Of a stretch of DNA of 64,000 nucleotides, positions 6,222 to 40,934 are shown one piece after another; positions within the stretch are counted from its first letter, which is position 1, and each line of letters starts with the position of its first letter. A program made the translations under genes and the position numbers. The notes under the pieces are model-generated. The model did not search any database, was not told the DNA's origin, and worked only from the letters and a program-made list of their open reading frames with translations. The stretch is taken from positions 62,001 through 126,000 of the forward strand of contig NZ_SLVX01000003.1 of assembly GCF_004341885.1 (NCBI RefSeq), in the 5' to 3' direction. This DNA comes from Shinella granuli. GTDB lineage: Bacteria; Pseudomonadota; Alphaproteobacteria; Rhizobiales; Rhizobiaceae.

Positions 6222-6270
6222 GATCGCTATCCTTCCAGATAGATAGCTCCTCGTTGGGGAGGAGTGTCCC
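6222..6270 (-). promoter_or_regulatory. Candidate serC-motif leader RNA (two tandem hairpins over the ribosome site)
   Basis: Read on the minus strand, the serC mRNA leader holds two back-to-back hairpins. The first is CTCCTC / GAGGAG (6 bp, plus-strand 6247-6264). The second is CTATC / GATAG (6242-6246 with 6227-6231), whose loop and 3' arm contain the Shine-Dalgarno sequence GGAAGGA (6230-6236). The start codon follows within five bases of the second stem. Position, strand and layout match the published serC RNA motif of alphaproteobacteria, as I recall it. The ligand or trigger of that motif is, to my knowledge, not established. Confidence 0.75.
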
Positions 6271-6350
6271 GCCGCCGTGAATATGGAAGAGCCATTTTGA
6301 AGTCAAGCGGATTATGTCGCGAACGAAAAATAATGCGGCGCAACGGAAAC

Positions 6351-7440: not shown

Positions 7441-8274
7441 TTATTTGTAGACGGGCTGCTCGATCGGGATTTCGGCCGGCGGGATATAGGCCTGCTGGTC
7501 GCAGCCGTTGAAGGCGTAGCGCAGACCGGCGCGTGCCTCGTGGCTGTAGAAGCCCTTGTCGTAGCCCGGGCCGCCGCCGGCATTGAAGCCGAACATGTCG
7601 CCCTTGGTGACATGGCGGAAACGGTAGCCGAGGTCGGCCTTCAGGTTGCAGGTGACATCGACGGAGGCGCCGGCCATCAGCGCATAGGTGAAGCGCCAGC
7701 TCTTCCGGCCGCGGTGATCGAAGGTCGGGTCGCAGTTCGTCGGATCGCCGGTTTCGCACGAGGTGTTCTTGAGGCTCTTCCAGTTCACATAGGTACCGCC
7801 GATACCCGCGCCGACATAGGGCGTGACGATGCCGTAGGTGCCGATATCGACATAGGCATTGGCGAGCAGGCTGAGGGCCGTCAGCGAGGAGACGTCGGTC
7901 GAGGTGCAGTTCACGGCAACGCCGCAGCCGCCCGTCGTCGAGCCCTTGAACTTGGACTTGAACATGTAGTCGAGCGTCACGTCCGTGCGGAAGTGATCGT
8001 TGATCTGGTAACCGACACCGCCGCCGATGGTGAAGCCGCTCTTCAGGCGCGTGGAATCGAAGCTGCGATAGGTGTCGTTCGACCCCTGGTAGAAACTGGC
8101 CCCGCGCATCTTGTTGTAGGACCAGCCCATGTCACCGCGCAGATACCAGCCGCCCGTCTCGATGACGGTTTCCTGCACCGGCGCCTCGATGACCTCCGGC
8201 TGGTAGACATCGGCCGCATAACCCGACGTGCCCGTCAGCAGGACGGCAACCACGCCACTCAAAACTTTCCTCAT
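7441..8274 (-). CDS. Outer-membrane beta-barrel protein, paralogue of the neighbour
   Basis: 277 residues from the ATG at 8272-8274; this start is chosen because GGAG lies six bases upstream and the signal peptide (MRKVLSGVVAVLLTGTSGYAADV) begins exactly there, although the frame stays open further. Barrel strands match the paralogue at 6400-7233: GGWYLRGDMGWSYN, YVDIGTYGIVTPYVGAGIGGTYVNW, WRFTYALMAGASVDV and LKADLGYRFRH. Unlike the neighbour it does not end in an aromatic residue but in EQPVYK after a short proline-rich tail. A perfect CtrA box (8362-8376) lies about 90 bp upstream, suggesting cell-cycle control. Confidence 0.85.
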   Translation of the reverse strand: MRKVLSGVVAVLLTGTSGYAADVYQPEVIEAPVQETVIETGGWYLRGDMGWSYNKMRGASFYQGSNDTYRSFDSTRLKSGFTIGGGVGYQINDHFRTDVTLDYMFKSKFKGSTTGGCGVAVNCTSTDVSSLTALSLLANAYVDIGTYGIVTPYVGAGIGGTYVNWKSLKNTSCETGDPTNCDPTFDHRGRKSWRFTYALMAGASVDVTCNLKADLGYRFRHVTKGDMFGFNAGGGPGYDKGFYSHEARAGLRYAFNGCDQQAYIPPAEIPIEQPVYK

Positions 8275-8361
8275 GGCCTTGCTCCAATAGGCTTTGCTTG
8301 GGTTGGCCGGCACGCCGGATTCCAAGTCCCTCGATCAGGCATGGATAATGGCGAGGAAAGG

Positions 8362-8376
8362 TTAAGGGGCGATTAA
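8362..8376 (-). promoter_or_regulatory. Predicted CtrA binding site upstream of the outer-membrane protein gene
   Basis: TTAA-GGGGCGA-TTAA followed by C is an exact match to the full alphaproteobacterial CtrA consensus TTAA-N7-TTAAC. It lies 88 bp before the ATG at 8274 in an AT-rich intergenic segment, where a regulator of that gene would be expected. The nearest other gene ends here (glmM terminator at 8489-8509), so the outer-membrane protein gene is the only plausible target. Confidence 0.65.
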
Positions 8377-31704: not shown

Positions 31705-31732
31705 TTCGTTTGGCGAACGATTTCAGGAAAGT

Positions 31733-31888
31733 ACGATCCGCGACGACCGATGGAGAGTTACGATCCTGGGTGCCTACAAACGTAGGTGGGCACCGTGTGA
31801 CCAAGCCCACGGGCCGGGTCAGGGACAGCTCCCTTTGGATCGAGTATGGCCCCAGGGATTGTGGTTCCTGTCGGGAAGCGCAGATCGC
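31733..31888 (-). ncRNA. ssrS: 6S RNA
   Basis: About 156 nt immediately downstream of zapA, the classic 6S position. The minus-strand RNA begins GCGATCTGCG and ends CGCGGATCGT, which form a 9-bp closing stem with a single U-G pair. The interior has GGGCC/GGCCC pairing, a GGGA-GCTG-TCCC hairpin and the apical arm ACGGTGCC...CTAC-GTTT-GTAG-GCACC, whose CACGGTGCCCACCTACG stretch recalls the conserved apical strand of proteobacterial 6S RNAs. A TATATA -10 box at 31895-31900 puts transcription start at about 31888, exactly the start of the stem. 6S RNA binds the sigma-70 holoenzyme and mimics an open promoter. The call is strong on position and fold, but no covariance search was run. Confidence 0.85.
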
Positions 31889-31894
31889 ATCCGA

Positions 31895-38351: not shown

Positions 38352-39629
38352 ATGCGTAAAAACCTCATATCCGTCTTCGCGCTTCTCATGGGCACGCTGT
38401 TCCTCTTCCTCGGGAACGGCCTGCATGGCCTGCTCCTGCCCATGCGCGGCGCCTTCGAGGGCTATGAGACGACGATGCTCGGCCTGCTCGGCACGTCCTG
38501 GGCGTCGGGCTTCGTTCTCGGCTGCCTTCTGGCACCCACCGTCGTCAAGCGCATCGGCCATGTGCGGGCCTTTTCCGGCTTCGCCTCGCTGATCGCCATC
38601 ATCGCGCTTTTGACGGGCATGCTGGTCGATCCCTTCTGGTGGATCGCGCTGCGCGCCGTCACCGGCTTCTCGATCGCTGGCACTTCGATGATCATCGAAA
38701 GCTGGCTGAACGAGCGCGCCACCAATGAAAGCCGCGGGCTGATCTTCTCGCTCTACATCGCCATCACCCTCGTCGGCACCGTCGGCGGCCAGATGACCGT
38801 GGCGCTGGGTGACGTCACGACGCCGCTGCTCTTCATGTTCGCCGGCATCCTCTACTGCCTCGCCATGCTGCCGACGACGCTCTCCACCGCCGCCTCGCCG
38901 CAGCCACTGAAGCAGGTCAGGCTCGACATCCCCGCCCTCTACCGCACCTCGCCGGTCGCCAGCGTCGGCATCGTGCTGATCGGCATCGCCAACGGCGCCT
39001 TCGGCACGCTCGGCGCGGTCTTCGGCACCAATGCCGGCCTCTCCTCCAGCACGATCGCCATCATGATGAGCGTCGCCATCTTCGCCGGCGCCGTCATGCA
39101 GCTGCCCGCCGGCCGTCTGTCCGACCGGGTCGACCGGCGCATCGTGCTCGCCGCGCTCTCGGCCATCGCCGCGGCAGCGGGCCTGTCGCTCTTCGTCTTC
39201 CAGCCGGCCTCCGTCACCATGCTCCTGGTGCTGACGGCCCTCTACGGCGCTATGGCGAACGCGCTCTACCCGATCGCCGTTTCGCACGCCAACGACTTCG
39301 CCAGCCCCGAGGACTTCGTCAAGGTTTCCGGCGGGCTGCTGCTACTCTATGGCGTGGGCACGATCATCGGCCCGACGCTCGGCGGCCCGATCATGTCGGC
39401 GGTCGGTCCCTATGCGCTGTTCATGGTCACCTGCTGGGCGCATATCCTGATCACCGCCTATGCCATCTTCCGCAGCCGCCGCCGCGCTGCCCTGCCGGCC
39501 GAGATGCGCGACTCCTACACGACCATCAATCCCGGCACGCTCACCACGCCGGAAAGCCTTCAGCTTTCGCCGCGCGCCCTCGCCCAGCCGCAGGCCGCCG
39601 ACGAGCAACAGGAGGACCGTCCCACATGA
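38352..39629 (+). CDS. MFS transporter, YcaD-like
   Basis: 425 residues with twelve predicted membrane helices. The TM2-TM3 loop reads APTVVKRIGHVRAFSGFAS, and the second-half repeat is LPAGRLSDRVDRRIVLAALS, both major-facilitator signatures; GTSMIIESWLNERATNESRG resembles the YcaD/CsbX group. The long C-terminal tail is Gln/Ala-rich. Substrate unknown. Its stop codon overlaps the DUF1192 start (ATGA), so the two genes are translationally coupled. Confidence 0.9.
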   Translation: MRKNLISVFALLMGTLFLFLGNGLHGLLLPMRGAFEGYETTMLGLLGTSWASGFVLGCLLAPTVVKRIGHVRAFSGFASLIAIIALLTGMLVDPFWWIALRAVTGFSIAGTSMIIESWLNERATNESRGLIFSLYIAITLVGTVGGQMTVALGDVTTPLLFMFAGILYCLAMLPTTLSTAASPQPLKQVRLDIPALYRTSPVASVGIVLIGIANGAFGTLGAVFGTNAGLSSSTIAIMMSVAIFAGAVMQLPAGRLSDRVDRRIVLAALSAIAAAAGLSLFVFQPASVTMLLVLTALYGAMANALYPIAVSHANDFASPEDFVKVSGGLLLLYGVGTIIGPTLGGPIMSAVGPYALFMVTCWAHILITAYAIFRSRRRAALPAEMRDSYTTINPGTLTTPESLQLSPRALAQPQAADEQQEDRPT

Positions 39630-39814
39630 GCTTTTTCGAAGACGACCGCCCCGTAAAGAAGATCGCCCACGAGATTGGCAGCGACCTCTCGCTACTTTCC
39701 GTTGACGAGCTTGCCGCCCGAATCGACCTGCTGCGCGCGGAAATCGAACGGCTGGAGGCGGAGAAGCTGAAGAAGGGCGCCAGCCGCTCGGCGGCGGAGA
39801 ACCTGTTCCGCTGA
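39626..39814 (+). CDS. DUF1192 protein
   Basis: 62 residues: an N-terminal MSFFEDDRPVKKIAHEIGSDLSLLSVDELAARI followed by a helix that ends IERLEAEKLKKGASRSAAENLFR. Both parts are the hallmarks of the alphaproteobacterial DUF1192 family, which has a predicted coiled coil and no known function. It overlaps the MFS gene by four bases. The MFS-DUF1192 pair precedes the rcdA region. Confidence 0.9.
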   Translation: MSFFEDDRPVKKIAHEIGSDLSLLSVDELAARIDLLRAEIERLEAEKLKKGASRSAAENLFR

Positions 39815-39877
39815 ACCCGCGCCGGATTGTCGCAGCCTTGCCGAAAAGGCACAGGCACGAGCAAACCGGCAATAGAG

Positions 39878-39892
39878 TTAACCGGCCATTAA
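39878..39892 (+). promoter_or_regulatory. Predicted CtrA binding site 1
   Basis: TTAA-CCGGCCA-TTAA, a perfect TTAA-N7-TTAA match. TTATTA at 39903-39908 could be the -10 element of a start at about 39912, so the box would lie at about -34 to -20, in the promoter region. Confidence 0.7.
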
Positions 39893-39910
39893 GCCTTCCC
39901 TGTTATTACT

Positions 39911-40015
39911 TGAACATCCGGTCCTTCCGGGTTCAGACATTTTTCCCCTCGGGGTTTCGGTCTGATTTTTCTCCCTGTTTTACCTTGAGAGCCGCTTTCC
40001 GCGGCTCTTTTTTTG
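39911..40015 (+). ncRNA. Candidate CtrA-linked small RNA
   Basis: About 105 nt with three structures. Hairpin 1: TGAAC/GTTCA and CCGG/CCGG enclosing a TCCTT loop (39911-39935). Hairpin 2: GAC/GTC around CCCC-TC-GGGG (39936-39962), whose stem can extend to TCAGAC/GTCTGA at the cost of hairpin 1. Then a U-rich single-stranded stretch and the terminator AGAGCCGC-TTTCC-GCGGCTCT followed by TTTTTT (39988-40015). The pyrimidine-rich loops look like anti-Shine-Dalgarno seeds, as in the rhizobial alpha-r sRNA families. It may be a known family that I could not name with certainty. Confidence 0.6.
39988..40015 (+). terminator. Strong intrinsic terminator of the candidate sRNA
   Basis: AGAGCCGC (39988-39995) pairs with GCGGCTCT (40001-40008), followed by seven T residues: a textbook terminator, facing rcdA and about 50 bp before CtrA box 2. 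Confidence 0.9.
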
Positions 40016-40061
40016 TTTGCCCGCTCCGTGCGCGCGACCTGTCCCGAAAGAATTGTGGAGA

Positions 40062-40076
40062 TTAACCCTTTCTTAA
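40062..40076 (+). promoter_or_regulatory. Predicted CtrA binding site 2, upstream of rcdA
   Basis: TTAA-CCCTTTC-TTAA, a perfect consensus match 119 bp before the rcdA ATG and beyond the preceding terminator, so rcdA is its natural target. Confidence 0.75.
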
Positions 40077-40194
40077 GAATACTCTTGCGCGAATTGGGTT
40101 ATGGGATCATCCTCACGACATAAAACGGCCGATTGGAACACCACGGACCGACCTTCCGTTACCTGCATGTGATGCGTTCAACAGGGATGAAACC

Positions 40195-40713
40195 ATGTCC
40201 GAAAGAGGATTGAATACCGTCAGCTTCGCTGGCCACGTTGCGTCGTCGGCGCAATTCAAGTCCCTGTACGCCGAGGGCATGGGTCTGGTCGAGGAAACCG
40301 CAAGCTACCTTGACGGCGTCGGCCGCCAGGCTTCCAAGGTGCTGCCCCGCATGGCCTCGGTGCTCTATGCGGCCGAATCGATGCGCCTCACTACCCGCCT
40401 GATGCAGATGGCCTCCTGGCTGCTCCTGCAGCGGGCCGTCAACAATGGCGAGATGAGCCGCGACCAGGTGCTTTCGGAGAAGAACAAGGTCCGCCTCGAC
40501 AGCTTCAACGTCGACAAGACCGCGCCCGGCTGGAACGACCTGCCGGAGGCCTTCCGCGACCTCATCGAACGCTCGCTGCGCCTGCAGAACCGCATCGCCC
40601 TGCTGGACCGCGAGATCTACCGCCCGCAGGAGGTCCAGACCTTCGCGCCGGACAACCAGAACAGCGTGCAGGCCCAGATCAACCTGCTGCAGACGGCTTT
40701 CGGCAGCAACTGA
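40195..40713 (+). CDS. rcdA: RcdA-type protease adaptor (DUF1465)
   Basis: 172 residues, largely helical, without signal peptide. The core YAEGMGLVEETASYLDGVGR, MRLTTRLMQMASWLLLQRAVNNGEMS and LIERSLRLQNRIALLDREIY matches the DUF1465 family that includes Caulobacter RcdA, the adaptor that helps ClpXP degrade CtrA and other cell-cycle proteins. The disordered C-terminal tail (EVQTFAPDNQNSVQAQINLLQTAFGSN) fits RcdA, whose tail recruits cargo. The perfect CtrA box upstream agrees with CtrA controlling its own degradation factor. The gene is monocistronic, with its own terminator. Confidence 0.82.
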   Translation: MSERGLNTVSFAGHVASSAQFKSLYAEGMGLVEETASYLDGVGRQASKVLPRMASVLYAAESMRLTTRLMQMASWLLLQRAVNNGEMSRDQVLSEKNKVRLDSFNVDKTAPGWNDLPEAFRDLIERSLRLQNRIALLDREIYRPQEVQTFAPDNQNSVQAQINLLQTAFGSN

Positions 40714-40736
40714 GCAAAGACGGCAACGCCTGATGG

Positions 40737-40762
40737 AACCCGGCTTCGGCCGGGTTTTTTAT
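40737..40762 (+). terminator. Intrinsic terminator of rcdA
   Basis: AACCCGGC (40737-40744), TTCG loop, GCCGGGTT (40749-40756) and then TTTTATTTT. A very similar hairpin (40961-40982) lies on the other side of the following repeat. Confidence 0.92.
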
Positions 40763-40773
40763 TTTGCGGAGAC

Positions 40774-40934
40774 CACCCCTCATCCCCCTGCCGGGACCTT
40801 CTCCCCGCAGGCGGGGAGAAGGGGGTGTCGCGCCGGTTTCCCTACTTCTGCGGGTAAGCGATTGTGGGAAACGGCGCGCCCAGCCTTCCTCGCCCCGCTT
40901 GCGGGGAGAGGATGCCGGCAGGCAGGTGAGGGGC
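40774..40934. repeat. 160-bp nested palindromic repeat element
   Basis: The outer arms CACCCCTCATC.../...GGTGAGGGGC and CTGCC/GGCAG are complementary; inside them lie two local hairpins, CCTTCTCCCCGC/GCGGGGAGAAGG (about 40796-40821) and CTCGCCCCGC/GCGGGGAGAG (about 40889-40910), and between those GCGCCGGTTTCCC and GGGAAACGGCGC are complementary. The whole element can form one long branched cruciform. This kind of sequence is common between genes of rhizobia and their relatives; it is a second family, distinct from copies A-D. Confidence 0.85.

Follow-up and report, generated by a model that had tools for sequence, protein, structure and literature searches.

CtrA is the central cell-cycle regulator of alphaproteobacteria. 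Promoters that it activates carry the CtrA box at about −37 to −23, and CtrA boxes near −35 are able to repress as well as to activate. To our knowledge, CcnA of Caulobacter is the sole small RNA (sRNA) tied to CtrA by a promoter site, and the cuckoo family of sRNAs is distinguished by its C-rich anti-Shine-Dalgarno motif. The sRNA described here shares with the cuckoo family, and with suhB/MmgR (RF00519), an unpaired CUCCC between a hairpin and the terminator, but it scores 23.5 bits against RF00519, below the cut-off of 41 for that model. CcnA (CCNA_R0094) of Caulobacter crescentus combines a predicted CtrA promoter site with an exposed C-rich element (PMC8959179; here and below, published reports are drawn on for the portions of text available to us), and in both respects our sRNA resembles it. 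CcnA differs in that it sits at the replication origin and binds the 5′ UTRs of ctrA and gcrA through CCCC, whereas pairing of the core of our sRNA with these two mRNAs is unsupported. EcpR1 and GspR of S. meliloti are trans-acting sRNAs on cell-cycle genes as well; EcpR1 is stress induced and GspR represses ctrA and cspA5 (PMC4414408, PMC5928217), but the loci and sequences of both differ from those of the sRNA studied here.

A closer counterpart has been catalogued in S. meliloti as Sm84, SmelC671 or SMc06875 (family RFM_SmelC671) and in R. etli as ReC71. The S. meliloti gene order is SMc03988> sm84> SMc03989>, and the northern band of sm84 is ~80 nt (PMC2573895 Table 1); RNA-seq gives SmelC671 a length of 100 nt (PMC2873474), and CUCCCUGU lies within a long single-stranded domain of this RNA (PMC2873474, PMC2573895, PMC3927594). 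The sm84 promoter was reported to resemble closely the constitutive S. meliloti consensus (s70), and the RNA gave an array signal in each of the six stresses applied (PMC2573895). A flattened table in PMC7143759 appears to give no sigma-factor motif for SmelC671 and to place its expression in nodule zone II; in the available portion of that paper, which also names the SmelC671 family, CtrA is mentioned for EcpR1 and GspR. CtrA control is not reported for Sm84 in the texts that we found, and in the open full-text literature we found no text linking CtrA to Sm84, SmelC671 or BjrC1505, with an earlier mention elsewhere being possible. What is new here is a conserved, putative CtrA box in the predicted promoter of an already known RNA.

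The window, the whole 64-kb stretch of Shinella granuli DNA that we analysed (64,000 nucleotides), contains three TTAA-N7-TTAA sites, against a mean of 0.02 and a maximum of 1 in 100 shuffles. Two of them, which the earlier note had read as perfect and which are indeed exact, flank a predicted sRNA, the second standing in front of rcdA as that note had said (Table 1), and both are conserved in Rhizobiaceae. A promoter scanner found no sigma-70-like site in 39300–40800. The product of the rcdA gene is 92–99% identical to 12 Shinella records. RcdA is a DUF1465 protein, and the PF07323 model matches Caulobacter vibrioides among 14 control genomes.

Table 1. Features of the sRNA–rcdA locus, with positions counted from the first base of the window.
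Feature	Position	Strand	Basis and remarks
DUF1192 gene	39626..39814	+	Pfam PF06698, E 9.5e-22; corresponds by position to SMc03988
CtrA box 1, TTAACCGGCCATTAA	39878-39892	+ (palindromic motif)	exact TTAA-N7-TTAA; −35 region of the predicted sRNA promoter
Candidate −10 element, TGTTAT	39901..39906	+	weak, read from the sequence
sRNA, Sm84/SmelC671/BjrC1505 family	39915..40014	+	fold and RF02356 alignment; predicted 5′ end, +/- few bases
Hairpin 1, TCCTT loop	39916..39932	+	folding
Hairpin 2, UCAGAC...GUCUGA, C-rich inner part	39933..39965	+	folding
Invariant core CUCCCUGU, anti-Shine-Dalgarno-like	39971..39978	+	conservation
Intrinsic terminator, GAGAGCCGC...GCGGCTCTT plus T-run	39987..40014 (stem 39987-40009)	+	terminator scan, folding
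CtrA box 2, TTAACCCTTTCTTAA, before rcdA	40062..40076	+	exact TTAA-N7-TTAA
AACAGGGA in the rcdA leader, candidate pairing site	40180..40187	+	complement of UCCCUGUU within the sRNA core
rcdA (DUF1465)	40195..40713	+	PF07323, E 1.7e-59; CtrA-degradation adaptor by family

The RNA is predicted to fold stably, with 39912–40017 reaching −37.8 kcal/mol against −23.71 (s.d. 3.08) for shuffled sequences (z −4.57; 0 of 200 as good). The TCCTT-loop hairpin, C-rich hairpin, U-rich stretch and terminator described in the earlier note were all found between the boxes, the U-rich stretch forming the linker between hairpin 2 and the terminator. The same note's 105-nt unit holds up as a predicted stable, terminated RNA, but its length is likely ~100 nt (~39915–40014). 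A coding reading was rejected: a 75-aa ORF with a TTG start (39838–40065) spans the RNA, but the lengths of relatives differ by non-multiples of three and their stems show compensation.

Relatives were collected with a model of the RNA only (R1), built from 27 of 75 distinct Rhizobiaceae RNAs and including neither promoter nor rcdA. Among 297 genomes of the order, R1 matched 79, once in each, from 39 of 118 genera; filters were strict and the sensitivity of the model is incomplete, with 218 genomes giving no match, which makes 79 a lower bound, and as these genomes are related by descent the counts are not independent events. A further 80 Rhizobiaceae loci were gathered through rcdA. Hairpin 1 keeps its form across the 79 R1 members with 39 different stem sequences (by a simple stem finder), and in 27 aligned Rhizobiaceae sequences its columns 12–22 show GC, AU and GU pairs with 8 double changes. 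Hairpin 2 has other stems, e.g., GAGUGG...CCACUC, in most members, and the terminator stem is identical in all 27 aligned sequences. Alignment A2 took in 38 of the 79 members; RNAalifold on a diverse MAFFT alignment gave 12 pairs with the hairpins misaligned, and model R2 was therefore not used.

The core CUCCCUGU is present in all 79 R1 members and, as CUCCCUGUUUUACC, in all 80 loci found through rcdA. In 75 of the 79 R1 members, each of the five bases of CUCCC is predicted to be unpaired with P ≥ 0.7. Among 15 fully folded members, it is displayed in a free linker in three close relatives and in a clear hexaloop in 7 of the 12 others; this hexaloop form, CCUCCC, is often seen in other families. 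The earlier note had proposed the TCCTT loop as the seed for target prediction, but this loop occurs in just 19 of 80 related loci and therefore cannot be a conserved seed; the conserved exposed element is instead CUCCC in the linker.

The earlier note had also suspected membership in a known rhizobial family and proposed an Rfam search, and the membership proved right. At a lax threshold, RF02356 (BjrC1505) aligned over its full length (1–140 of 140) with positions 39870–40014 at 34.9 bits (E 4e-5), below the gathering cut-off of 50 bits. Scanning of 20 of the 79 R1 loci gave matches above this cut-off in 15, at the same place before rcdA; the five misses were three Rhizobiaceae and two members of another family (f37). 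The window's RNA is thus linked to RF02356 members above the cut-off by homology over the full length and by orthology. With the S. meliloti RNA it shares a single-stranded domain carrying CUCCCUGU between the hairpin(s) and the terminator, and it is likewise a plus-strand RNA of ~100 nt between genes at the positions of SMc03988 and SMc03989, the latter being rcdA as inferred from gene order. This comparison used S. meliloti 4H41 instead of strain 1021; the 4H41 locus (L062) has the RNA in the corresponding position. The 4H41 6S RNA lies ~12 kb from the sRNA locus, compared with ~14 kb in strain 1021 (table in PMC2873474), and serC leader, 6S RNA and sRNA share order and orientation in S. meliloti and the window. 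By sequence and position, then, the window's sRNA is most likely the S. meliloti Sm84/SmelC671 RNA and the Rfam BjrC1505 RNA, an already catalogued RNA whose two names are united here.

The box upstream of the RNA is conserved along with it. Counted as the best of nine start positions in the 79 R1 loci, box 1 has no mismatch in 61, one in 17 and two in one, whereas the same count 60 nt further upstream gave two mismatches in one locus and at least three in 78. Column conservation is 90–100% in the half-sites and 37–63% in the spacer, with 34–67% in the eight bases upstream and 75–84% in the two bases downstream. The 80 Rhizobiaceae loci have zero (53), one (19) or two (8) mismatches, and in every one of them the distance from box 1 to the core is 91–97 nt. 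Relative to the predicted RNA 5′ end, box 1 thus covers the −35 region at a constant distance, as is the case in CtrA-activated promoters. Box 2 is perfect in all 80 of these loci, 170–278 bp from box 1; in a comparison across the order, a perfect copy was present in all 14 genomes from the own family but in 4 of the 64 others. The place of the sRNA before rcdA is, from these comparisons, kept throughout the order (in 78 of the 79 R1 loci the sRNA is followed by rcdA in the same orientation, with a median gap of 180 nt). Because box 1 stays with the RNA order-wide and box 2 is perfect in only those 4 of 64 genomes outside the family, we regard the box before rcdA as a family trait and the RNA as the older predicted CtrA target.

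In a class-wide search of 387 genomes, RF02356 had matches (E ≤ 0.001) in 45, of which 18 exceeded the cut-off and 5 belong to the own order; it gave none in the 14 control genomes, among them Caulobacter vibrioides. The exact core was present in 27 of 30 class loci read, and these carried the box with no mismatch (13), one (13) or two (1); the three loci without the exact core, two of which adjoin DUF1465, were excluded from the box counts. An rcdA ORF was found in 16 of the 27 and was absent from the stretch read in 11, which come from four families and include one (L181) that ends ~200 nt downstream. All 11 keep the box, perfect in seven and with one mismatch in four. A gene for a Cys/Met-metabolism PLP enzyme lies downstream of the sRNA in three of five rcdA-less loci examined (L168, L172 and L183, from three families).

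RF02356 itself contains the box, so that box counts in the loci it finds are not independent; the search was therefore repeated with an RNA-only pattern, and we rely on the RNA-only searches. The pattern matched 21 of 289 genomes outside the order (the set includes four of the own order, none of which matched), and the reversed pattern matched 0. Ten of these loci were read, seven in genomes that RF02356 had likewise picked up: the box has no mismatch in three and one mismatch in six, and the tenth, a chance match in a coding sequence, has five; control windows for the ten gave two mismatches once and otherwise three to five. The box is ~20 nt closer in two of the nine loci than in the others. 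In other orders, on this evidence from sequence, the RNA keeps its box also where rcdA is not close by. A conserved CtrA box thus accompanies the RNA, not the neighbouring protein gene, across orders, and a catalogued RNA of no known function thereby gains a likely regulator.

We consider it probable that the locus encodes a CtrA-activated sRNA of the Sm84/BjrC1505 family that acts through its exposed CUCCC on ribosome-binding sites. CtrA most likely switches on the sRNA promoter, from a box at about −37 to −23 relative to the RNA 5′ end, and activation by CtrA is the likely part of this reading. Pairing with ribosome-binding sites is what we infer from an anti-Shine-Dalgarno-like element that is both exposed and invariant; it would most likely provide CtrA with a post-transcriptional arm.

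Other readings of the locus can be weighed against these data. A housekeeping sigma-70 promoter could drive the sRNA, with box 1 serving as a repressor site or as the partner of box 2 in rcdA control, which we judge unlikely. Repression from a CtrA box near −35 would be possible in principle. The s70 promoter given for sm84 (PMC2573895) also speaks for this reading, but the position of the box is fixed, the scanner found no consensus promoter, and box 2 is absent from most other families, so that a partnership of the two boxes is not general. It is more doubtful still that the region is a long regulated rcdA leader in which the transcript from box 1 ends at 40014 or reads into rcdA (cis attenuation): a second CtrA box lies between the terminator and rcdA in all 80 Rhizobiaceae loci, the gap from sRNA to rcdA varies from 111 to 1398 nt, RNA and box are kept in the 11 class loci with no rcdA in the stretch read (L181 with its short downstream sequence among them), and the S. 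meliloti RNA is a discrete species of 80–100 nt (PMC2873474, PMC2573895). Its location on the rcdA strand, at a median gap of 180 nt, would nonetheless suit a leader, as would the several TSSs and the possible CtrA site described upstream of agrobacterial rcdA (atu3742; PMC10469942). That TTAA-N7-TTAA is part of the RNA itself is very improbable, since, although RF02356 aligns with the box included, the 100-nt S. meliloti RNA fits a start after the box (PMC2873474), and the spacer bases vary while the half-sites are constant. The BjrC1505 model differs from our delimitation of the RNA in covering the stretch with the CtrA box; its 5′ third (window 39870–39914) appears to take in promoter DNA, and the 5′ boundary of RF02356 is therefore probably wrong.

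An activating box 1 would also bear on what is known of rcdA in S. meliloti, where a CtrA ChIP-seq peak lies at the rcdA promoter region, rcdA mRNA is unchanged on CtrA depletion and overproduction of RcdA lowers CtrA (PMC4433202); a known CtrA motif also precedes rcdA there (PMC3616915). Because the mRNA is unchanged despite CtrA binding, it is doubtful whether CtrA controls the adaptor for its own degradation in S. meliloti, the one relative tested. A CtrA-activated sRNA offers a possible reading of this puzzle: in that case, the sRNA would account for the ChIP peak no less than rcdA does. In Rhizobiaceae, the sRNA may moreover lower RcdA through the rcdA leader, and CtrA would then slow its own degradation, in that CtrA would raise the sRNA, RcdA would fall and CtrA would last longer.

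Complementarity at the ribosome-binding site makes rcdA a possible target of the sRNA in Rhizobiaceae, since the 35-nt rcdA leader contains a complement to the core of at least 8 bases in 36 of 80 loci versus 25 of 1600 shuffles. At least 6 bases are complementary in 72 of 80 loci versus 296 of 1600 shuffles, and the upstream DUF1192 leaders used as a control (obtained from 72 of the 80 loci) reach at least 8 bases in 6 of 72 and at least 6 in 27 of 72; the rcdA complementarity is partly the Shine-Dalgarno sequence itself, and the 80 loci are closely related. In the window, AACAGGGA begins 15 nt before the ATG of rcdA. The effect is weak across the order, where the mean longest run in 25 genomes is 5.16 for rcdA versus 4.87 for ctrA, 4.55 for gcrA and 5.38 for cdnL. 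Pairing of the core with mRNA regions from −150 to +30 (60 shuffles) shows a slight shift for rcdA (mean z −0.53; z < −2 in 2 of 25 genomes), is unsupported for ctrA (mean z −0.08; 2 of 30) and gcrA (mean z −0.27; 2 of 29), and gives no signal for cdnL (mean z −0.17; 1 of 29). We put forward only tentatively, and think it rather doubtful, that the sRNA is a class-wide ancestral RNA and a core CtrA target, a rhizobial counterpart of CcnA whose CUCCC would silence mRNAs including rcdA and so protect CtrA.

Candidates outside the locus were also considered. In several Rhizobiaceae (L202–L205), the leader of cdnL/carD is conserved and has ACAGGGAG ahead of the ATG, a position at which it was seen in 4 of 6 Rhizobiaceae. 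As a target, cdnL was nevertheless rejected, since of 30 further cdnL loci 1 contained ACAGGGAG and 3 contained AGGGAG. AACAGGGAGG occurs before an ATG in at least 88 of 120 genomes scanned. The 70 loci with AACAGGGAGG (55 ORF entries of at least 60 aa, alternative starts counted) were rejected as common targets, matches between genomes having only 20–33% identity. Many of the encoded products resembled solute-binding proteins, which were likewise rejected as AACAGGGAGG targets: a control with CA replacements was no poorer in signal-peptide-like proteins (17/41 vs 31/59), as counted by a crude regular expression with ORFs of less than 60 aa left out.

Several further features were observed in the same genome and its relatives. 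The third TTAA-N7-TTAA site, at window positions 8362–8376, precedes a minus-strand ORF (7441–8325) by ~36 nt; the product of this ORF, which is perhaps another CtrA target, resembles, by eye, an outer-membrane beta-barrel protein. On the minus strand, the window also contains a serC leader at 6222–6274 (68.4 bits) and a 6S RNA at 31731–31889 (73.6 bits), both above their Rfam cut-offs. The ctrA gene is on the same contig (G000:C3, 50429–51100) as the sRNA (101910–102014), ~51 kb from the sRNA/rcdA pair. In other orders, a few genomes (G612, G298 and G473) carry two copies of the sRNA, and those in G612 are in tandem (C6:79514–79860, L190).
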